A stretch of DNA of 64,000 bases from Aminithiophilus ramosus (GTDB taxonomy: Bacteria; Synergistota; Synergistia; Synergistales; Aminithiophilaceae): contig NZ_CP072943.1 of assembly GCF_018069705.1 (NCBI RefSeq), forward strand, positions 186,001-250,000, in the 5' to 3' direction. Each line of letters starts with the position of its first letter. The stretch's first letter is position 1. Below, one piece after another: positions 28,998 to 37,705 of the stretch. The notes under the pieces are model-generated. The model was not told the origin of the DNA. It saw only the letters and a program-made list of their open reading frames with translations, and did no database searches. A program made the position numbers and the translations under genes.

Positions 28998-29053
28998 TTA
29001 GTTCGATGAATCAAACTGAGCCGATGATAAACAAAAAAGAGAATCATTGTCAA
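28998..29053 (-). promoter_or_regulatory. Promoter and operator of the surface-protein gene
   Basis: On the minus strand TTGACA (29053-29048), 18 bases and TATCAT (29029-29024) are followed at once by the operator at 28998-29019 (core TTTGATTCATCGAA). The dyad extends to 28991-29026 as 17-bp arms with two mismatches around the central TC. The same operator occurs at three other leftward promoters in the window. Confidence 0.75.
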
Positions 29054-29099
29054 ATCTAACTTGGAGTTCCATCCGATCCCCCGCGGCCTGCCTCCCTTC

Positions 29100-29879
29100 T
29101 CAGAGGGGCGTCGCCGCATCGAGGAGACGCCTCGAATGGATGTCGCCGACGGCGTGGAGGCGGGACAGGTCGTCGACCCTTTCGACGATGCGGCCGTCGT
29201 TCATGAAGAGGACGGCGTCGCAGAGGTAGGTCACGGCCGTCAGGTCGTGAGTGATGAAGAGAAGGGAGAGCCCCTCGTCGCGGCGGAGCTCCGCCAGAAG
29301 GTCCATGACCTGGACCTGGACGGAGACGTCGAGGGAACTCGTGGCCTCGTCGAGAAGGATGAAGCGGGGGCGGGAGGCGACGGCCCGGGCGATGCAGATC
29401 CTCTGGAGCTGACCGCCGCTGAGCTGATGGGGACGGCGGCGGAGAAGATCGCTCGAGAGTCCCACCTTCTCCAGAAGGGCGAGAACCCGCTCCTTCCTGT
29501 CTCTTGCGCCGTCGCGGCCTTTTCTCAGCGGCTCGGCGATGATCTCCTCGACGGAGAAGCGGGGGTTGACGGAGGTGACGTAATCCTGGAAGACGACGCT
29601 GCAGGGGTGGAAGGAGGCCCCTCGCCCGGTGCCGTAGAGGTTCTTCCCGTCGACGGCGACCTCACCTCTGTCGGGTCGAAGGAGGCCGACGAGGACCCGC
29701 CCCAAGGTGCTTTTCCCGCTTCCGCTCTCGCCGACGATTCCCAGGCAGCATCCCTCTTCGAGGGTCATGGAGAGGCCCTGGAGGACGGGGTGCTGGCGGC
29801 GGTGGAGAAGCCCTCCCCTGCGGAAGGCGACGTGGATGTCAGAAGCCCGTAGCAGCGGGGGCGAGGAGGGGTTCCTCAT
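29100..29879 (-). CDS. nikE: Nickel ABC transporter ATPase NikE
   Basis: The 259-residue ATPase has Walker [10 protein letters not shown] (about residue 51), signature LSGGQLQRICIARA and Walker B FILLDEATSSLD with the switch ITHDLTAV. It belongs to the oligopeptide/nickel ATPase family and is the last gene of a nikABCDE set. It overlaps nikD by about 40 bases. Specificity is inferred from the NikA-like binding protein; the ATPases alone resemble DppF/OppF. Confidence 0.85.
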   Translation of the reverse strand: MRNPSSPPLLRASDIHVAFRRGGLLHRRQHPVLQGLSMTLEEGCCLGIVGESGSGKSTLGRVLVGLLRPDRGEVAVDGKNLYGTGRGASFHPCSVVFQDYVTSVNPRFSVEEIIAEPLRKGRDGARDRKERVLALLEKVGLSSDLLRRRPHQLSGGQLQRICIARAVASRPRFILLDEATSSLDVSVQVQVMDLLAELRRDEGLSLLFITHDLTAVTYLCDAVLFMNDGRIVERVDDLSRLHAVGDIHSRRLLDAATPL

Positions 29880-30708
29880 GGCGCGATCGCTCCTCTCGGG
29901 GGGTCGTCGCCTTTCTGAAGGCGTCGAGCAGCATGAGACGGGTGTCGAAAAGATGGCCGGTCCTCCGCGACCTGGGGGCGGAACAGATCCGCCTCAGGTC
30001 TCCCTGTTCGATGACCTCGCCCCTGTCCATGACGAGCAGGTCGTCGGCGATGCGGGCCAGGACGCCCAGGTCATGGGAGATGAAGAGGACCGAACAGCGC
30101 CGTTCCCTTCGGACTCGGTCGAACTCCTTGAGGATCTCGTCCTGCGTCACCGTGTCGAGGGCCGTCGTCGGCTCGTCGGCGATGATCAGGTCCGGACCGA
30201 GGAGGAGGGCCAGGCCGATCATGACGCGCTGGAGCATGCCGCCGCTCAGCTGGTGAGCGTACTGCCTGAAGACGTCGTCGGGATGGCGGAGACCCATGAG
30301 AGTCAGGGCGTCGAGACTGCGTCGTCGTGCCTCGGCAGGGGAGAAGGGGCCGTGCTGGCGGACCGTTTCGACCATCTGGGAGCCGATGGAGAGGAGGGGG
30401 TCAAAGGCCGTCATGGGGTTCTGGAGGATCATGGCGATTCCCGATCCCCGGAGCGCGCGCATCTCCTCCCGTCGCAGCGACAGGAGATCGCGGCCCTTGT
30501 AGGCGACCGTTCCGCTGACGCGGTACTCCGGGCCGAGAAGGCCCATGACGCTCTTGCAGGTCAGGCTTTTGCCGCTCCCGCTCTCCCCGAGGATCCCCAG
30601 GCAGGATCCCTTTCGGAGTTCGAAGGAGACGTCCCGGAGCAGCCTTTTTCCCTCAGTGCCGGAGCGGACCTCGACGGAGAGATTCTTGACGGCAAGCAGC
30701 GTTTCCAT
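29839..30708 (-). CDS. nikD: Nickel ABC transporter ATPase NikD
   Basis: The 289-residue ATPase has Walker [10 protein letters not shown] (about residue 40), LSGGMLQRVMIGLALL and [16 protein letters not shown], followed by FISHDLGVLARIAD. It forms the asymmetric ATPase pair with NikE. The start at 30708 lies 12 bases after the nikC stop region, with AGGAGA upstream. The C-terminal 30 residues (from SRRTGHLFDTRL) are variable. Confidence 0.85.
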   Translation of the reverse strand: METLLAVKNLSVEVRSGTEGKRLLRDVSFELRKGSCLGILGESGSGKSLTCKSVMGLLGPEYRVSGTVAYKGRDLLSLRREEMRALRGSGIAMILQNPMTAFDPLLSIGSQMVETVRQHGPFSPAEARRRSLDALTLMGLRHPDDVFRQYAHQLSGGMLQRVMIGLALLLGPDLIIADEPTTALDTVTQDEILKEFDRVRRERRCSVLFISHDLGVLARIADDLLVMDRGEVIEQGDLRRICSAPRSRRTGHLFDTRLMLLDAFRKATTPREERSRHEEPLLAPAATGF

Positions 30709-30720
30709 GGCAGTCTCCTT

Positions 30721-31539
30721 TCATGCCCTCTTGGGGTCCAGGATGTCTCTCAGGCTGTCGCCCAGGAAGTTGAAGGCCGAGACGACGGCCAGGATGGCCA
30801 AGCCCGGGGCGATCATCAGAGAGGGGGCCTGCATCATGACGTTCTTGGCCTCGTTCAGAATGGCGCCCCATTCGGCCGTCGGGGCCTGGACGCCGAGGCC
30901 CAGGAAGGAGAGGGTCGAGATGTTCAGGATGACCCAGCCCGTGTCGAGAGAGGCGAGGACGAGGACTTCCGTGGCGACGGCCGGCAGGAGATGGCGGAAG
31001 AGGATGAAGGCCGTTCCCGTGCCGACCGTCCTTGAGTAGGCCACGTAGCCCCTGTCGACGTACTGAAGGACCGATCCCCGGATCATGCGGGCGTACCAGG
31101 CCCATTTGACGAGGATGTTGGCGATGATGACGTTGGACATGCCCGGCCCCAGCATGCCGACGACGGCGAGAATCATCACCTGGCTGGGAAAGGAGAGCAT
31201 GACGTCGCAGAGTCGCATGAGGAGCTCGTCGACGGGGCCCTTGGCGTAGCCCGAGAAGAGGCCGATGGAGATGCCCAGCCCCAGGGTGCAGGCCATGGTC
31301 ACAAGGGAGAGGAGGACCGTGGGGCGGATGCCGTGGATCAGCCGGGAGAGGACGCAGCGTCCCAGGTGGTCCGTCCCGAAGGGGTAGGCGGCGCTGGGGC
31401 CCTTGAGCTTGGCCAGGATGTTGACCTTGTTGGGGTCGTTGAGGGGGAGCAGGTCGGCACCGAGCCCCAGGAGGATGACGGCGGCGATGAGGAAGAGGGC
31501 GATGGCGGCCGTCCTGTCGCGCAGAAGTTCCCGCACCAT
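30721..31539 (-). CDS. nikC: Nickel ABC transporter permease NikC
   Basis: The 272-residue permease has an N-terminal helix, the PFGTDHLGRCVLSRLIHG segment characteristic of DppC/NikC permeases, and the EAA-type loop region (GYVAYSRTVGTGTAFILFRHLLP). About six membrane spans are visible. The ATG at 31539 is preceded by GGAGGACC on the minus strand. It forms the channel with NikB, whose stop lies 2 bases upstream. Confidence 0.87.
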   Translation of the reverse strand: MVRELLRDRTAAIALFLIAAVILLGLGADLLPLNDPNKVNILAKLKGPSAAYPFGTDHLGRCVLSRLIHGIRPTVLLSLVTMACTLGLGISIGLFSGYAKGPVDELLMRLCDVMLSFPSQVMILAVVGMLGPGMSNVIIANILVKWAWYARMIRGSVLQYVDRGYVAYSRTVGTGTAFILFRHLLPAVATEVLVLASLDTGWVILNISTLSFLGLGVQAPTAEWGAILNEAKNVMMQAPSLMIAPGLAILAVVSAFNFLGDSLRDILDPKRA

Positions 31540-31541
31540 GA

Positions 31542-32474
31542 TCAGGTCCTCCTCAGTCGGGGATCGAGATAGCCCTGGAGAAGGTCCACGGCGAGGTTGC
31601 AGAAGACGAAAAGGAATCCCATGATCAGGATATAGGCCTGAATGACGGGGTAGTCGCGGTTGAAGATGGCCGAGATGCAGAGCCTTCCGATGCCGGGCCA
31701 GGCGAAGATGCTTTCGACGAGATAGGTCCCGGCGATGAGCTGGGGGACGCTCATGCCCAGGGCCGTCAGACAGGCGTGAAGCGAGTTGCGGAAGACGTGC
31801 CTCAGCAGGATGGCCGATTCGGAGAGGCCTCGGGCCCGGGCGTAGAAGACGTAGTCCTCGCCCATGTTCTCGACCATCTTGTTGCGGATGAGCCTGATGT
31901 AGGTCGATATGTAGGTCATGGAGAGGGTCAGGGCGGGCAGAATCAGGCTCTGCCAGGAGTCGCGGCCGCTCGTGGGCAGGATGTCGAGCTTGAGGGCGAA
32001 AAGCCACATGAGAAGCAGCCCCAGCCAGTAGTTGGGCATGGCCGTGCCGATGAAGACGAAAAGGCGCAGAGCCCGGTCGAGAGGGCCCTGGGGGCGCAGG
32101 GCGCAGACGATGCCCAGGGGAAAGCTGACGAGCAGGACGAGGGCCAGAGAGGCGGCGGCCAGTTCGAGCGTCGCCGGGAGGGCCCGGAGGATCTCGCCGC
32201 CGACGGTCCTGTTGTCGTTGGTGAAGGTGTTGCCGAAATCGAGGTGGAGGCTTCTCCATAGCCATCGGACGTAGCGGAGGAGGAAAGGATCGTCGAGGCC
32301 CAGCTCGGCCCGCATCCCCTCGACGGCCTCCTCGGTGGGCACGATGTCGTTGATCCTCAGGATGACTTCGGCCGGATCGGAGGGAATGAGAGCGACGAGG
32401 CAGAAGGCGAAGAAGGAGACGCCCAGAAGGAGAGGGACGGCCAGCAGAAGACGTTTCAGGAAATAGCTTCGCAT
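31542..32474 (-). CDS. nikB: Nickel ABC transporter permease NikB
   Basis: The 310-residue permease begins MRSYFLKRLLLAVPLLLGVS, a typical first helix of DppB/NikB permeases, and has the EAA loop (YARARGLSESAILLRHVFRNSLHA). Six membrane spans are expected. It is separated from nikA by a 67-base spacer that holds a hairpin, which fits lower expression than the binding protein. Confidence 0.87.
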   Translation of the reverse strand: MRSYFLKRLLLAVPLLLGVSFFAFCLVALIPSDPAEVILRINDIVPTEEAVEGMRAELGLDDPFLLRYVRWLWRSLHLDFGNTFTNDNRTVGGEILRALPATLELAAASLALVLLVSFPLGIVCALRPQGPLDRALRLFVFIGTAMPNYWLGLLLMWLFALKLDILPTSGRDSWQSLILPALTLSMTYISTYIRLIRNKMVENMGEDYVFYARARGLSESAILLRHVFRNSLHACLTALGMSVPQLIAGTYLVESIFAWPGIGRLCISAIFNRDYPVIQAYILIMGFLFVFCNLAVDLLQGYLDPRLRRT

Positions 32475-32489
32475 CGGAAAACTCCTCCC

Positions 32490-32523
32490 CTCTTCCCCCC
32501 CTCGCGACGGAGGAGGGGAAGAG
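32490..32523 (-). terminator. Hairpin between nikA and nikB
   Basis: CTCTTCCCC (32490-32498) is complementary to GGGGAAGAG (32515-32523), a perfect 9-bp stem. It lies directly after the nikA stop on the transcribed strand and has no T-run; a role in 3'-end protection of the nikA message or partial termination is likely. Confidence 0.55.
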
Positions 32524-32541
32524 ACGGACGGTCCCGGGCCG

Positions 32542-34122
32542 CTAGTCGGCCAGGGACATCTTCTCGAAGGGAACCTCGAACTGCGAGGGATTGTAGGTGA
32601 CGCCGAGGACCCGGTCGCTGAAGATGGCCCTGTTGCGCTCGTAGGTCAGGGGCAGGTAGACGGCCTCTTCATGGAGCGTCGTCAGGATGGAGGTGAAGAG
32701 CTCCTGACGCCTGTCCGCGTCGGTGGTGACGAGGACCCTGGCGATCCGGTCGTCGAGGTCGGCCTTGCAGGCCAGCCCCTGCTGGGCGGCGTAGTCGCCG
32801 TAGACGACGGTTCTCATGGCGCTGAGGAAGGACTGGGGATCGTAGGGCGTCCCCCAGGAGATGTTGAAGACGATGTCGAAGTCGCCCGCCTTCTGGCGGT
32901 CGCGGTAGGACTGCTCCTCTTCGCCGAGGATCTTCAAGTCGACGCCCAGCTCGGCCCAGAGGCTCTGGAAGTATTCGGAGAGGGTCTTCTCGGAGACGCT
33001 GTTGCTGTTGTAGAGGAGCGTCATCTGGAGCGTCTCGCCCTGGCGGCTGCGGAAGGGCCGGCCCGCCTCGCGGACCCAACCGGCCTCGTCCAGGAGCCGT
33101 CCTGCCGCCTCGAGATCGAAGGCGTAGGACTTGAGGTCGACGTCGCAGTAGGGGACGGTGCGGGCAAGAACGGTGTCGGCGGGGCTTTCGATGCCGTTGA
33201 AGATCCCCTCGGAGAGGGCCTTCTTGTCGACGGCGTGCTGAAGGGCCTGGCGGACCTCTCGCTGGGTGAGGGCTCCCTTCGTCGTGTTGAGAAGGAGCAT
33301 GCGCGTCGAAACGGGATCGGAGAGAGAGGTGACGAAGCCCTTCTTTCCCCGGAAGCGCTCCAGCGTGTCGGCGTCGATCATGTTCTTGCCGTAGATCAGG
33401 TCGATCTCGCCCTTCTCGAGGGCCAGAACGCGCGTCTGGTTGTCGGGAATGACGCGGACCTTGATGGTCCTGATGGAAGGTTTCTCACCCCAGTAGTTCT
33501 CGTTGCGGACGAAGGTCGCCTGCTGATCGACGACGTTCTCGGCCAGGACGTAGGGGCCCGTGCCGATGTGGCCCGTCACGCCTTTTTTCGTCGTCCCCTC
33601 CTTCATGCACCGGGGAGAGATGAAACGCATGGGGCGGGTGACGCCCAGCTCGGTGAGCATGGGGAAGTAGGGCTCCTTGAGGCGGATCCGGAGGGTGTGG
33701 TCGTCGACGGCGTCGACGCCCTCCATGAGACGGACCATTTCCAGCCAGCCGTGGCGTTCGATGTTGTCCAGGACGGCGTCGAAATTGGCCTTGGCCGCCG
33801 CGGCGTCGAAGGGCTCTCCGTCGGAGAAGGCGACGTCCCGGCGGAGATGGAAGGTGTAGACCCGTCCGTCGTCGGAGATCTCCCAGCTCTCGGCGAGCCA
33901 GGGCTCGATGCCGTCAGGGGTGATCTTCACCAGGGACTCGTAGAGAAGGTTCTGGGCGTAGAGCTCGCCGCCGTAGAGGTGGGGGTTCAGGTCGCGGATG
34001 TCGCGGAAGTTGACGTAGACGAGGGTCTCCTTTTCCGAGGCGGAAGAGGGAGCGGCCAGGGAGAGAACTCCCAGGAAGAGCGATGCCAGGACGAGCGACA
34101 GGGCGAGACAGACCTTCTTCAA
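32542..34122 (-). CDS. nikA: Nickel-binding periplasmic protein NikA
   Basis: The 526-residue protein has a signal peptide (LALSLVLASLFLGVLSLAAPSSA) and is recognisably NikA: RDLNPHLYGGELYAQ-like start (IRDLNPHLYGGELYAQN), FVRNENYWGEKPSIRTI, DLIYGKNMI, LLNTTKGA and WGTPYDPQSFLSAMR all parallel E. coli NikA. It should bind nickel held by small organic ligands in the periplasm. In E. coli NikA the metal complex is contacted by His416 and aromatic residues; the corresponding segment here keeps W-G-x-P-Y-D-P but not the exact His, so the bound complex may differ. A short GCCCCC-GAA-GGGGGC hairpin (34149-34163) precedes the gene. Confidence 0.88.
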   Translation of the reverse strand: MKKVCLALSLVLASLFLGVLSLAAPSSASEKETLVYVNFRDIRDLNPHLYGGELYAQNLLYESLVKITPDGIEPWLAESWEISDDGRVYTFHLRRDVAFSDGEPFDAAAAKANFDAVLDNIERHGWLEMVRLMEGVDAVDDHTLRIRLKEPYFPMLTELGVTRPMRFISPRCMKEGTTKKGVTGHIGTGPYVLAENVVDQQATFVRNENYWGEKPSIRTIKVRVIPDNQTRVLALEKGEIDLIYGKNMIDADTLERFRGKKGFVTSLSDPVSTRMLLLNTTKGALTQREVRQALQHAVDKKALSEGIFNGIESPADTVLARTVPYCDVDLKSYAFDLEAAGRLLDEAGWVREAGRPFRSRQGETLQMTLLYNSNSVSEKTLSEYFQSLWAELGVDLKILGEEEQSYRDRQKAGDFDIVFNISWGTPYDPQSFLSAMRTVVYGDYAAQQGLACKADLDDRIARVLVTTDADRRQELFTSILTTLHEEAVYLPLTYERNRAIFSDRVLGVTYNPSQFEVPFEKMSLAD

Positions 34123-34200
34123 ATAAAACGACCTCCTCGATCGATTCTGCCCCCGAAGGGGGCGCGTTCTCCTCTTTTCCGACTTTTAAAAAAGAGGGAA

Positions 34201-35415
34201 TCAGGCTGGGGATTGAGGGACGACGCTCCTCCGGTTCGCTCTCTCCGACGTCGCCGCGTGGCGGCCGAGGAGCGCGGCGGCCATCAGCCCGACGAGGGTG
34301 AGACCGCCGATGAGCGAAAGGGGATGGAGCTCCCAGAGCCAGGCCGTCAGGGCCCCTCCCGAGGCGCCGGCGACGCCGGCGAAGAGGTAGAAGACGCCGA
34401 AGCAGACGCCCTGGCGCCGCTCGCCTCCCATTTCGGGGATCATGCTCAGGGCCGGCGGAAAGACGGTCATCATGCCCAGCGTCAGCAGCGTCGTCGTGAC
34501 GAGGGTGTTGACGGAGACGGGTCCGACGGATCCGACCCGCAGAAGCAGGAAGGGAAAGGCCAGGGCCATGAGGCCCATGCCCGCCGCCAGGCGCAGGGGG
34601 CGTGAAAAACGCCCCACGACGAAGCGGGAGAGAGGCATCTGGAGCGCGACGCTCAGAAGGGCCGAGAGGGTGAACAGGGCCGCCACGGAGCCGTCGTTGG
34701 GGGAGCTTAGGGGCAGCAGAAGGTAGAGCTGGTTGAACATCAGATAGTAGGCCGACATGAGAAGGCAGAAGATCAGGAAGTCCCTTCGCCGGAAGACGGC
34801 GACCCAGTCGGTCAGAACGGGAAGGGAGGAGTTCCTCTCCGTCCCCTCCAGGCGGGGGAGGTGGAACCACTGGAGGAGGAGAAGAAGAAAAAAGACGGCG
34901 GCGGCGACGGCGCAGAGAGTGGAAAATCCGTATCGGAGCAGGGCGAGGCCGCAGAGGGGCCCCGCAAGGGCGCCGGCCTGGCTGGTCACGTTCTGGAGGG
35001 CGTAGACGCTCTCCCTCTCGGGGTGATCCTCGGTCAGCCTGGCCAGAAAGGCCTGGTAGGCGGGAGAGAAGAGGGCTCCGGCCAATCCCGTGAGAAAGGC
35101 GGCGCCGACGACGGCCCAGGGACGGAGGGCGACGCCGAAGAGGCCGAAGCCCAGGACCCTCAGGGCGCAGCCGGCGAGGATGACCGTCTGGTAGTTGAAA
35201 CGGTCGGCCAAGGTTCCGCCGACCAGGAAGAGCCCCTGCTGGCTCAGCATGCGAAAGCCCATGACGAAACCGGCGAAGGCGGCCGACAGCCCCAGATCCT
35301 CGGTGAGATGGCGCGTCAGGTAGGGCAGAAGCATGTAGAAGCCGACGTTGAAGCCCAGATTGTTGACGAGAAGGACCTTGACGGGAAGGGGGAGGCTCAG
35401 GGCGAAGGAGAACAT
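34201..35415 (-). CDS. MFS transporter
   Basis: The 404-residue protein has twelve probable membrane helices and the MFS loop signature GGTLADRFNYQTVI (about residues 67-80). Its start at 35415 lies within the end of the ATP-grasp gene (19-base overlap) with GGAAAGG upstream, so the two are translationally coupled. Directly downstream is nikA, 79 bases away. In this setting it most likely exports, or imports, the product of the ATP-grasp ligase. The direction is inference. Confidence 0.85.
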   Translation of the reverse strand: MFSFALSLPLPVKVLLVNNLGFNVGFYMLLPYLTRHLTEDLGLSAAFAGFVMGFRMLSQQGLFLVGGTLADRFNYQTVILAGCALRVLGFGLFGVALRPWAVVGAAFLTGLAGALFSPAYQAFLARLTEDHPERESVYALQNVTSQAGALAGPLCGLALLRYGFSTLCAVAAAVFFLLLLLQWFHLPRLEGTERNSSLPVLTDWVAVFRRRDFLIFCLLMSAYYLMFNQLYLLLPLSSPNDGSVAALFTLSALLSVALQMPLSRFVVGRFSRPLRLAAGMGLMALAFPFLLLRVGSVGPVSVNTLVTTTLLTLGMMTVFPPALSMIPEMGGERRQGVCFGVFYLFAGVAGASGGALTAWLWELHPLSLIGGLTLVGLMAAALLGRHAATSERANRRSVVPQSPA

Positions 35416-36707
35416 GACGACCTTTCCGACGCGCCGCCGCACCCGCAGGATCGGGGGCGGATGAGGGCCGTCAGGCGGGAGAGGGCCTCCTCGGCCATCC
35501 TCCCCGCGCCCAGGCCTTCCCGATCTTCGGCGAGGACATGGCCCAGGTAGCAGTCGTTGTCGTCCGGCCGGAGGACTTCCGTCCCCGGCGCAGAGAGAGA
35601 GCAGCGGACCACGCCGGGGCTGGCTTTCGCCTCCGCCTCGCCCCGAAAGCCGGCGAGAATCCCCTCGGAGGAGGGAAGAAGGAAGGCCACGGCGGCGCTC
35701 TTCGGCCGCTCCGCCTCGACCGCTTCTCTCGGCTCCTCTCCCAGGGCGACCTCGACCATCTGCGTCAGGGGGTTCAGCCCCGTCACCCGCTCGACCAGCT
35801 CGGAGATGTAGTTGCCGCCGATGCGGGGATTCATCTCGATGATGCGCGGTCCCGACGACGTCATGCGGATCTCGACGTGGGCCGTTCCCTCGACGTAGCC
35901 CATGGCCGAAAGAGCTTCGGCGGCGTGGGCCCCGATGGCTCGGGCCGATTCGGCGGGGAGGTCGGCGGGGAACATGTGTCCCCGCTCGACGAAGCCCCCC
36001 TCGCCGCCCAGCCTCTTGTCGGTGATGCCCGACAGGAAGATCTCCCCCCGACGGGCGCAGCATTCGACGCTGAACTCCTCGCCGGAGAGGTACGATTCGA
36101 CGAGGGCGCCCGAGGCTCTCTTTCTCCCCCTCGGGTTGGCGGGGTGAGAGAGGACGGCCCCGATGGCCCTTCGCATCTGATCGACGGAGTGGACCTTGCG
36201 GACGAGGGTGCTGCCGCTCATGTCCAGAGGTTTGACGATGGCGGGCAGACCCGTCGCTCCGGCGGCCGCCTCGGCCTCCTCTTCCGACAGGGCAAGGAAG
36301 AAGGAGGGGCCGGGCAGTCCCTTACGGCGGAGGGCCTGGCGCATGAGGTGTTTGTCCGTCATCGAGGCGAGGACCTCGGCGGGGGAGGAGGGGAGGCGGA
36401 ACCTCTCGGCGACGGCGGCGACGAGGGGGAGATAGCCGTCGCAGCTGCTGATCACGCCCGAGATCGCCTCGTCGCGGAAAAGCCCCTCGCAGAGGGAAAG
36501 GAAGGAGGCCTCGTCGCGGGTATCGCAGCGCAAGACGCGATCGGCCAGGGCCACGACGGGGTGGAGGCCTCCGTCGGGACTGTAGCGGTTATAGAAATCG
36601 GGGTCGTCTGTCGCCAGAATGAAGCGGTGACCGAGCTCCCTGATCTTGCGGGGCAGCAGGATCCCCGAGGCGAAACGCCAACTTTCGATCATCAGCAGCG
36701 TCTTCAG
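35397..36707 (-). CDS. ATP-grasp carboxylate-amine ligase
   Basis: The 431-residue frame from ATG 36692 starts MIESWRFASG. A better start is a CTG at 36707, five codons earlier (CTG-K-T-L-L-M-I-E), which completes the first beta strand and has AAGGAGG exactly 8 bases upstream. The protein has the pre-ATP-grasp fold, then LPAIVKPLDMSGSTLVRKV (ATP-binding loop, about residue 155), VESYLSGEEFSVEC, and the Mg/ATP site AHVEIRMTSSGPRIIEMNPRIGG. Such enzymes join a carboxylate to an amine through an acyl phosphate and include L-amino-acid ligases and siderophore synthetases. Position at the head of the MFS-nikABCDE run suggests it makes a small peptide-like metal chelator. Confidence 0.82.
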   Translation of the reverse strand: MKTLLMIESWRFASGILLPRKIRELGHRFILATDDPDFYNRYSPDGGLHPVVALADRVLRCDTRDEASFLSLCEGLFRDEAISGVISSCDGYLPLVAAVAERFRLPSSPAEVLASMTDKHLMRQALRRKGLPGPSFFLALSEEEAEAAAGATGLPAIVKPLDMSGSTLVRKVHSVDQMRRAIGAVLSHPANPRGRKRASGALVESYLSGEEFSVECCARRGEIFLSGITDKRLGGEGGFVERGHMFPADLPAESARAIGAHAAEALSAMGYVEGTAHVEIRMTSSGPRIIEMNPRIGGNYISELVERVTGLNPLTQMVEVALGEEPREAVEAERPKSAAVAFLLPSSEGILAGFRGEAEAKASPGVVRCSLSAPGTEVLRPDDNDCYLGHVLAEDREGLGAGRMAEEALSRLTALIRPRSCGCGGASERSSCSPSP

Positions 36708-36778
36708 CGCGAGAACCTCCTTTTCGGGGGAGAGGGCCCGTCGGCTCCGATGGCGGGGCGTGAAGGCCGAAGGCGTCC

Positions 36779-36838
36779 TTAGTTTGATGAATCAAACCGA
36801 GGAGCACAAGAGTAACGGTTGCTGCTGTGACTTGTCAA
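36779..36838 (-). promoter_or_regulatory. Promoter and operator of the ATP-grasp/MFS/nik operon
   Basis: Minus-strand TTGACA (36838-36833), 18 bases, TACTCT (36814-36809), then the operator at 36779-36800 (core TTTGATTCATCAAA). The operator occupies the expected start point and early transcribed region, so a repressor bound there would block initiation. This is the only clear promoter found upstream of the seven-gene run. Confidence 0.78.
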
Positions 36839-36902
36839 GTCGCTACTTTGTTCCCGCATCCGCAGGCCCTTCAGGACAAACGCCCCCGGCTCCACCGATT
36901 CA

Positions 36903-37001
36903 AGGCCCGTCCCGATCGTCTCGCCGATGCGGGGTCGAGGCAACCGCCGTCTTCCTGTCGGACCCGATGGAGGCGTCCCTCCCGTTTTGCCTGTGGATCG
37001 G
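36903..37001 (+). repeat. Dispersed intergenic repeat, copy Y
   Basis: This stretch of about 100 bp aligns with 55397-55506. Shared blocks include TCGAGGC.ACCG, CGGAC..GATGGA and the identical GTTTTGCCTGTGGATCGG. Neither copy is coding. It lies between the ATP-grasp promoter and the small-RNA-like units. Confidence 0.6.
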
Positions 37002-37082
37002 AGTTCTTGCCGTGACATTCCGCTCGCCGAGAGGAGGGGGTCGTTTCCTCGTGGCCGACCGCGACGGGGCTCTCTCCGCGTA

Positions 37083-37222
37083 AAGTAATGGGGCCTCGCG
37101 AGAGGCCCCATTACTTCTTCGGGGGGGGGTGGTGATGGGAACATTCTGTCTTTCCTGCATGGGCAGAAGGAAAGAGGCAGAAAAGGAGGAAGGGATGGAA
37201 TCTTTGTTTGATCTCTCAAACT
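37083..37222 (-). ncRNA. Putative structured small RNA, copy 1
   Basis: A transcript from the promoter at 37257-37229 would run about 140 nt leftward and end in a perfect 15-bp stem with a four-base loop (37083-37116). It also contains a CTTTCCT/AGGAAAG hairpin (about 37150-37173), a run of nine C, and CCTCCTTTTC (37189-37180), complementary to a Shine-Dalgarno region. A second copy lies 440 bp away. Three base pairs of the terminal stem differ between copies by compensatory changes, which supports a folded RNA. No convincing reading frame with a ribosome site is present. Confidence 0.6.
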
Positions 37223-37257
37223 AAGGAGAGTATAGAAGCCCTTCTCTTTCCTGTCAA
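37203..37257 (-). promoter_or_regulatory. Promoter and operator of small RNA copy 1
   Basis: TTGACA (37257-37252), 17 bases, TATACT (37234-37229) on the minus strand, a near-consensus sigma70 promoter, followed directly by the operator at 37203-37224 (core TTTGAGAGATCAAA). The same arrangement is found at 28998, 36779 and 37650. Confidence 0.8.
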
Positions 37258-37275
37258 GCCCCTTTAGACATAAAG

Positions 37276-37300
37276 CGGACCAGATTCGTCCGGTTTTCTT
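37276..37300. terminator. Hairpin between the two small-RNA units
   Basis: CGGAC (37276-37280) pairs with GTCCG (37288-37292), followed on the plus strand by GTTTTCTTT. It separates the promoter of copy 1 from DNA upstream and has a counterpart upstream of copy 2. Confidence 0.5.
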
Positions 37301-37528
37301 TCGCCGCGAAAAACCTCCTGTCCTCCCGTAGGAGCCTCTACCTTTTCGGCCGGAGCGGGAAGGCTCCGGCCCGGAGGAGCCGAGGGTCCCGGCGCCTTCG
37401 CCGAGGGAGCCGGTGACGGCGGGTTTCGGGAAAGAGACGTCCCGGAGGCCGCCGGTGCGACGGACGGCTTCGAAAAGAGAAGCGATTGTCCCTTCTCGGT
37501 GACAGCGATCGTTTTTTCCAGGTCACAT

Positions 37529-37669
37529 AGAAGTGACAGGGCCTCGCGGGAGGCCCTGTCACTTCTTCGGGGGGGGGTGGTGATGGGAACGTTCTGCCTT
37601 TCCTGCATGGGCAGAAGGAAAGAGGCAGAAAAGGAGGAGGGGACGGGATTTTGTTTGATCTCTCAAACT
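37529..37669 (-). ncRNA. Putative structured small RNA, copy 2
   Basis: This is a paralogue of copy 1 with the same order of elements: operator, CCTCCTTTTC (37637-37628), CTTTCCT/AGGAAAG hairpin, nine C, and a terminal 17-bp stem (37529-37566). Relative to copy 1 the stem carries A-T to G-C, T-A to C-G and G-C to A-T replacements that all keep pairing. The identical C-run and anti-Shine-Dalgarno segment suggest these are the active parts. Alternatively the units are duplicated attenuators. Confidence 0.6.
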
Positions 37670-37705
37670 AAGGAGAGTATAAAAGCCTCTCCCCCTTTCT
37701 GTCAA
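37650..37705 (-). promoter_or_regulatory. Promoter and operator of small RNA copy 2
   Basis: TTGACA (37705-37700), 18 bases, TATACT (37681-37676), then the operator at 37650-37671, identical in sequence to the one at 37203-37224. Confidence 0.8.

Follow-up and report, generated by a model that had tools for sequence, protein, structure and literature searches.

A palindromic operator shared by metal-uptake, flavodoxin and predicted small-RNA promoters of Aminithiophilus ramosus points to a FeoA-bearing repressor of the DtxR family that probably senses iron

Introduction

The 64,000-nucleotide stretch analysed here (positions 186,001-250,000 of contig NZ_CP072943.1 of Aminithiophilus ramosus; ~66% GC; hereafter the window) lies in a single-contig genome of 3.108 Mb and contains four leftward promoters that share one palindromic dyad of 22 bp. 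This arrangement raises the question of which repressor acts at these sites and to which metal it responds. An earlier note, made from the sequence of the window alone, had proposed an undescribed regulon, with a metal-sensing repressor as the natural guess given the nik genes present. We find good grounds to regard the dyads as binding sites of a DtxR-family repressor that senses iron and ends in a FeoA domain.

Results

The dyad marks promoters in the window and beyond it

The four dyads lie at the coordinates given in the earlier note (Table 1), and all four accompany TTGACA-type promoters with 17-18 bp spacing, again as described there. Three of these promoters match the sigma-70 consensus at 11 of 12 positions and have the dyad beginning 4 bp past the -10 box; at 36779, where a perfect TTGACA is combined with a weak TACTCT and an 8-bp gap, the description of the dyad as immediately following the -10 box holds only loosely. 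Most promoters that carry a dyad, in the window or elsewhere, have it 0-8 bp past the -10 box or overlapping it. The predicted start site is thus covered by the dyad, which supports the previously proposed geometry of a repressor that would block initiation. The same positions, judged against the expected start sites, place the operator over the -10 box or the start, as in DtxR/IdeR regulons.

We searched the genome with the pattern TTAGTTTGA-N4-TCAAACTAA and used the reversed pattern as a control. Allowing up to three mismatches, six sites were detected with the pattern and none with the control, while 0.042 were expected from composition. These six strong sites are the four in the window plus one each at a flavodoxin and a ZinT-like lipoprotein gene; all six are at promoters, i.e. 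the strong sites are not scattered at random away from promoters. Moreover, the 16-bp core GTTTGANNNNTCAAAC has five exact copies genome-wide (control, none), and the 14-bp core with up to three mismatches has eight strand matches within the window against 1.1 expected.

The regulon list was built from pattern searches and targeted stretches in this genome and in relatives, a scan that had been suggested in the note. The four window units stay on this list, and the regulon extends beyond them. The dyad at 2,662,171 precedes a tandem ZinT-domain lipoprotein (Pfam ZinT, 6e-22), that at 2,709,431 precedes the flavodoxin (TIGR01752, above cut-off), and GTTTGATTTATCGAAC at 2,167,580, a seventh site whose core is good, lies directly past TTGACA-18-TAGAAT and precedes an operon of an S-adenosylmethionine-methyltransferase and an SBP_bac_5 protein. 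Upstream of dtxR, of three feoAB operons and of a second nik-type operon, the dyad recurs in weaker form; the second feoAB operon (261-269 kb) has two dyads in an arrangement repeated in a genome of the same genus (G003), and the third (1.25 Mb) has a site with two mismatches.

The sites are also found in other genomes. A second sequenced strain (G001) retains all six strong sites and the 2,167,580 site, and its ZinT site matches that of 'Synergistota bacterium strain L-13' (CP074691.1) letter for letter. The flavodoxin ortholog of G003 has an exact core. In a member of another family (G123), the promoter TTGTCA-17-TATACT of the ZinT lipoprotein ortholog (53% identical) is followed, after 5 bp, by TTAGTTTGGGACCTCAAACTAG, and in G030 a 22-mer with one mismatch lies upstream of feoA-feoB, adjoining a DtxR-family gene.

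A core match at 126,321 was not counted, because it belongs to an autoregulated TetR gene and the conserved neighbour of that gene in G003; in both genomes the gene has a conserved palindrome of its own, GTTTTATATGTCAAAC, which mimics the dyad by chance. The other phylum matches of the 22-mer (L032, L035, L036, L037 and L039) are without an iron gene and probably arose by chance, as probably did exact matches in unrelated phyla, most of them from taxa that are usually AT-rich.

Dyad-like sites were noted in three settings. In the stretch 257000-275000, which starts ~11 kb to the right of the window, the second FeoA-FeoB cluster is accompanied by genes for two DUF4198 proteins and an HD-domain protein and by another gene of the DtxR family; sites resembling the dyad lie upstream of feoA and also between the two genes for DUF4198, and G003 is similar. 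A NitT/TauT-type ATP-binding cassette (ABC) transporter following a HydG-like gene (50840) has a degenerate promoter dyad with one or two core mismatches in this genome, G002 and G003. In G003 (C66:118807), a dyad with one mismatch lies past a TTGACC/TAGAAT promoter and before nitrogenase-like NifH and component-1 genes.

The operator co-varies with the recognition helix of a feo-linked DtxR-family protein

As observed before, the window has no DtxR gene; the nearest member of this family is encoded 11.5 kb past the right edge. The candidate repressor gene (2,939,970-2,940,656) is 2.7 Mb from the window, beside feoA-feoB, in a dtxR-feoA-feoB cluster orthologous to that of G030. Its product has the domains Fe_dep_repress (PF01325, 39.5 bits; cut-off 26) and Fe_dep_repr_C (PF02742, 40.5 bits; cut-off 27) in addition to FeoA.

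We collected the dtxR cluster from relatives and ran a letter-blind search for palindromic motifs in the regions upstream of dtxR and of feoAB. With half-length and spacing set from the window motif and dinucleotide shuffles as a control, the search found one and the same dyad in the two sets, aaaGTTTgA-N4 before dtxR (log-likelihood ratio (LLR) 78.7) and TttGTTTgA-N4 before feoAB (LLR 68.9), with shuffles reaching at most 39.5. In a second search, the spacing was left open, the loci were split by the recognition helix of their regulator, and mononucleotide shuffles, which stayed at or below 18, served as a control. Loci with K-G helices yielded GTTTgA-N4-TcAAAC (LLR 128.6) and loci with K-A helices GTTAGA-N4-TCTAAC (LLR 133.0; spacing 4 best). 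Both values are for six-base halves; for K-G loci, a spacing of 6, which captures that site one base off, gave an LLR of 133.5, and a spacing of 4 was within 4% of the best. Scored with a T/A-neutral pattern, base 3 of the half-site was T in 40 cases and A in none for K-G and T in seven and A in 37 for K-A (Fisher test, 4.5e-17, uncorrected for relatedness; because the loci are related, this value overstates their independence).

In G020, G039 and G042, all with K-A regulators, the dyads that overlie the -10 box of the ATP-grasp operon are of the GTTAGA type, whereas this genome, with a K-G regulator, has the GTTTGA type. Operator class thus follows the regulator helix also at the ATP-grasp operons, which ties the operon in the window to the feo-linked DtxR. 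At the level of sequence, these loci show that the operator co-varies with the recognition helix of the regulator. The DtxR family is said to depend on indirect readout, and one helix residue that co-varies with one operator base provides a natural test of DNA recognition.

Other regulators were considered and set aside. FNR has a similar half-site (TTGAT...ATCAA), but the spacing differs and the targets do not fit. The genome has four Fur-family genes, one of them beside znuCB-like genes, but the dyad tracks DtxR rather than Fur or Zur; moreover, its core and spacing differ from the 7-1-7 Fur box (TGATAATNATTATCA).

Iron is the best reading of the co-repressor metal

The reading of one palindromic operator under a metal-sensing repressor is supported. 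The dyad precedes feoAB operons, the feo-linked dtxR and the flavodoxin, which points to iron and a DtxR-family repressor rather than to NikR; the nickel reading suggested by the nik genes is not supported. Nickel-responsive, NikR-like control would agree with the NikA-type binding protein encoded in the window, which exceeds the TIGR02294 cut-off; with sites at feoAB, dtxR and flavodoxin and an operator that co-varies with DtxR, we consider it very improbable. The dyad is also unlike the GTATGA-type NikR box; the NikR protein itself was not searched for. Zinc, first suggested by ZinT, was dropped because the flavodoxin and feoAB targets overruled it.

By alignment, the metal site of the regulator is Asp-Cys-Glu-His, compared with Met10, Cys102, Glu105 and His106 of the iron type, and the regulator thus has a Cys where IdeR and DtxR carry the iron-site Cys102. 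Several observations weigh against an iron-responsive regulon of the extent described here. The Asp in the Met10 position is as in manganese regulators, making the metal site mixed, and the FeoA-bearing PgMntR of Porphyromonas gingivalis, with the same Asp/Cys combination, binds DNA better with manganese and worse with iron (PMC4805248). Given this mixed site and this precedent, iron is the best reading but is not proven. The feo and dtxR operators of the candidate regulator are weak in this genome, with two core mismatches. At two core mismatches, the genome has 26 matches against ten in the control; real and chance sites are mixed here, and the outer limit of the regulon is uncertain. Because chance matches are this common, the sites at the third feoAB operon and at the HydG-linked ABC transporter are weaker claims. 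Finally, the helix switch amounts to three changes on the best tree, of which only one is forced by well-supported branches, and a second DtxR paralog could share or own some sites.

Two alternatives retain the operator and the protein family. In one, manganese, or either manganese or iron, is the co-repressor and the regulon senses the balance between them; the mixed site and PgMntR, which answers to manganese, would fit, as would the best partial NCBIfam matches of the regulator, MntR models far below their cut-off. With feoAB operons and a flavodoxin, however, the targets are classic genes of iron limitation, and no manganese transporter was seen among them; we consider this alternative unlikely. 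PgMntR, moreover, shares the FeoA extension and mixed metal site but has two FeoA domains, controls a manganese transporter and leaves the iron transporter promoter unbound, whereas here feoAB carries a site. In the other alternative, the window sites are controlled by the second DtxR-family protein (261,501-262,160; 38% identical to the feo-linked DtxR), whose gene is the closest of its family to the window and stands beside the second FeoA-FeoB operon with its dyads. Across families, the dyad tracks the feo-linked protein and its helix, and the helix of the paralog reads differently (VSKPSVV); this paralog is a rather improbable repressor of these sites.

A model for the regulon and its relation to known systems

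With iron as co-repressor, one repressor dimer with bound ferrous iron would sit on TTTGA-N4-TCAAA across the start site, just past the -10 box, and block initiation; upon iron starvation, the repressor would leave the operator and the regulon would be switched on. Ferrous iron would then be imported by way of three feoAB operons, flavodoxin would replace ferredoxin, and the ATP-grasp/MFS (major facilitator superfamily)/NikABCDE operon would probably export and re-import a small metallophore. The second nik-type operon, the ZinT-type metal-binding lipoprotein and the surface protein would also be derepressed, together with two C-rich small RNAs (sRNAs) that probably silence iron-using mRNAs.

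More broadly, and with somewhat less than even confidence, we propose that Synergistota respond to iron through a FeoA-bearing DtxR repressor, that a one-residue switch in its helix, from K-G to K-A, changed the operators of the whole regulon from TTTGA to TTAGA, and that this lineage gained a tandem pair of C-rich iron-sparing sRNAs and an ATP-grasp metallophore system. Our literature search turned up no iron regulon described in this phylum, and to our knowledge this would be the first such regulon in Synergistota. It gives the phylum a named candidate regulator, an operator code and a testable target list.

IdeR boxes lie over the -10 box or start site, and the single-dimer site of IdeR has been redefined as TTAGGNNNNCCTAA (PMC8464063, PMC10317159). 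The actinobacterial IdeR/DtxR systems share with the regulon proposed here a DtxR-family repressor, a 5-N4-5 operator over the -10 box or start and control of iron uptake. Here, however, the half-site is TTTGA (TTAGA in K-A relatives) instead of TTAGG/CCTAA, sites of the single-dimer type rather than the 19-bp double site are the rule, and the regulator has a C-terminal FeoA domain and an Asp replacing Met10. Because the half-site is a variant, we do not apply the label of a canonical IdeR regulon.

The ATP-grasp operon fits metallophore-type uptake no less well than simple nickel import and may direct metallophore synthesis. As in the staphylopine system (CntA-F importer, CntE MFS exporter), a biosynthetic enzyme, an MFS exporter and a NikA/CntA-type ABC importer occur together. 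In contrast to that system, an ATP-grasp ligase takes the place of the opine/nicotianamine-like enzymes, the operon containing neither a nicotianamine-synthase-like nor an opine dehydrogenase gene, and the binding protein passes the cut-off for NikA and not that for CntA. Orthologs of the ligase are 55% identical in G039/G042 and 38% in G109.

Two predicted C-rich small-RNA units

The two sRNA units are 93% identical over 140 nt, and their similarity stops at the 3' hairpin, where pairing of the stem is kept by two-sided changes (GTAATGG/CCATTAC versus GTGACAG/CTGTCAC). Compared with shuffled sequences, both units fold much more stably (Table 1). A clear U-tract is missing from both hairpins, which leaves the 3' ends uncertain. 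Two unpaired C-rich stretches, UCCCCUCCUCCUUUU and UUCCCAUCACCACCCCCCCCC, are near-identical between the copies, and the former could pair with Shine-Dalgarno sequences. Rfam gave no matches to the units on their strand up to E = 1, and an RNA model run over 188 genomes found full-length copies only in this species, other matches being mostly the 3' hairpin or marginal.

C-rich iron-repressed RNAs include IsrR of Staphylococcus and FsrA of Bacillus, and for MrsI of Mycobacterium, control by IdeR has been predicted (PMC9410917). Like the Fur-controlled FsrA and IsrR and the IdeR-linked MrsI, the units have promoters with a putative iron-repressor site, and their C-rich single strands recall IsrR and FsrA; they differ in being without an Rfam match, confined to this species, present as two tandem paralogs and under a putative FeoA-type DtxR. 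By analogy only, we regard them as analogs and not relatives of these RNAs. Both they and the candidate metallophore operon thereby receive a concrete hypothesis.

The units might instead encode a short peptide (MQERQNVPITTPPRRS...). They share an ATG frame whose first 16 codons differ between the units at two positions, both synonymous, and the strains are separated by an in-frame difference of 6 nt in the poly-C tract. A Shine-Dalgarno sequence is absent before this frame, however, and strong folding, the end of similarity at the 3' hairpin and the compensatory stem changes speak for RNA; we think a peptide improbable.

The poly-C run of unit 1 (37076-37216) is C9 in this genome and C15 in G001, either a slippage tract or a sequencing difference.

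Features of the window and additional observations

The features of the window are listed in Table 1. The surface protein scores just under the cut-off for both Pfam FmdE (20.2 bits; cut-off 22.9) and NCBIfam Synergist_CTERM (20.6; cut-off 22.5), and its repeats are visible in the sequence.

Table 1. Operators, promoters, genes and predicted RNAs in the window
Feature	Position	Strand	Remarks
Operator 1, TCAGTTTGATTCATCGAACTAA	28998..29019	-	Upstream of surface-protein gene; 2 mismatches to TTAGTTTGANNNNTCAAACTAA; kept in strain G001
Operator 2, TCGGTTTGATTCATCAAACTAA	36779..36800	-	Upstream of ATP-grasp/MFS/nik operon; core exact, 22-mer with 2 mismatches; orthologous operons of G020, G039, G042 have operators of matching class
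Operator 3, TTAGTTTGAGAGATCAAACAAA	37203..37224	-	At sRNA unit 1; 1 mismatch
Operator 4, TTAGTTTGAGAGATCAAACAAA	37650..37671	-	At sRNA unit 2; 1 mismatch
Promoter 1, TTGACA-18-TATCAT	29024..29053	-	4 bp before operator 1; 11/12 to sigma-70 consensus
Promoter 2, TTGACA-18-TACTCT	36809..36838	-	Weak -10; 8 bp before operator 2; missed by stricter promoter scan
Promoter 3, TTGACA-17-TATACT	37229..37257	-	At operator 3; two promoter scans
Promoter 4, TTGACA-18-TATACT	37676..37705	-	At operator 4; two promoter scans
ATP-grasp ligase, L-amino-acid-ligase-like	35397..36692	-	Pfam ATP-grasp_4 9e-21, LAL_C2 1e-13; possible metallophore or dipeptide synthetase
MFS exporter	34201..35442	-	Pfam MFS_1 4e-36; MdtH-like
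NikA/CntA-type substrate-binding protein	32542..34122	-	TIGR02294 nikA 615 bits (cut-off 393); CntA model 536 bits (cut-off 800)
Two ABC permeases	30721..32474	-	NikB 31542-32474, NikC 30721-31539; open reading frame (ORF) prediction and position
Two ABC ATPases	29100..30708	-	NikD 29839-30708, NikE 29100-29879; ORF prediction and position
Predicted secreted/surface protein, 794 aa	26473..28857	-	FmdE-like repeats and C-terminal Synerg-CTERM-like sorting signal
Predicted sRNA 1, ~140 nt	37076..37222	-	Two stem-loops, C-rich single strands; fold z = -5.45; 5' end inferred
Predicted sRNA 2, ~140 nt, paralog of sRNA 1	37524..37669	-	Fold z = -6.54; 5' end inferred

In G042 (C55:44169), a 58-bp near-perfect palindrome is centred on TTAGTTAGATAAATCTAACTAA and has -10-like boxes on both sides. 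Elsewhere in the A. ramosus genome, at 2978677-2979426, three identical tandem ORFs of 63 aa resemble the gas-vesicle protein GvpA.

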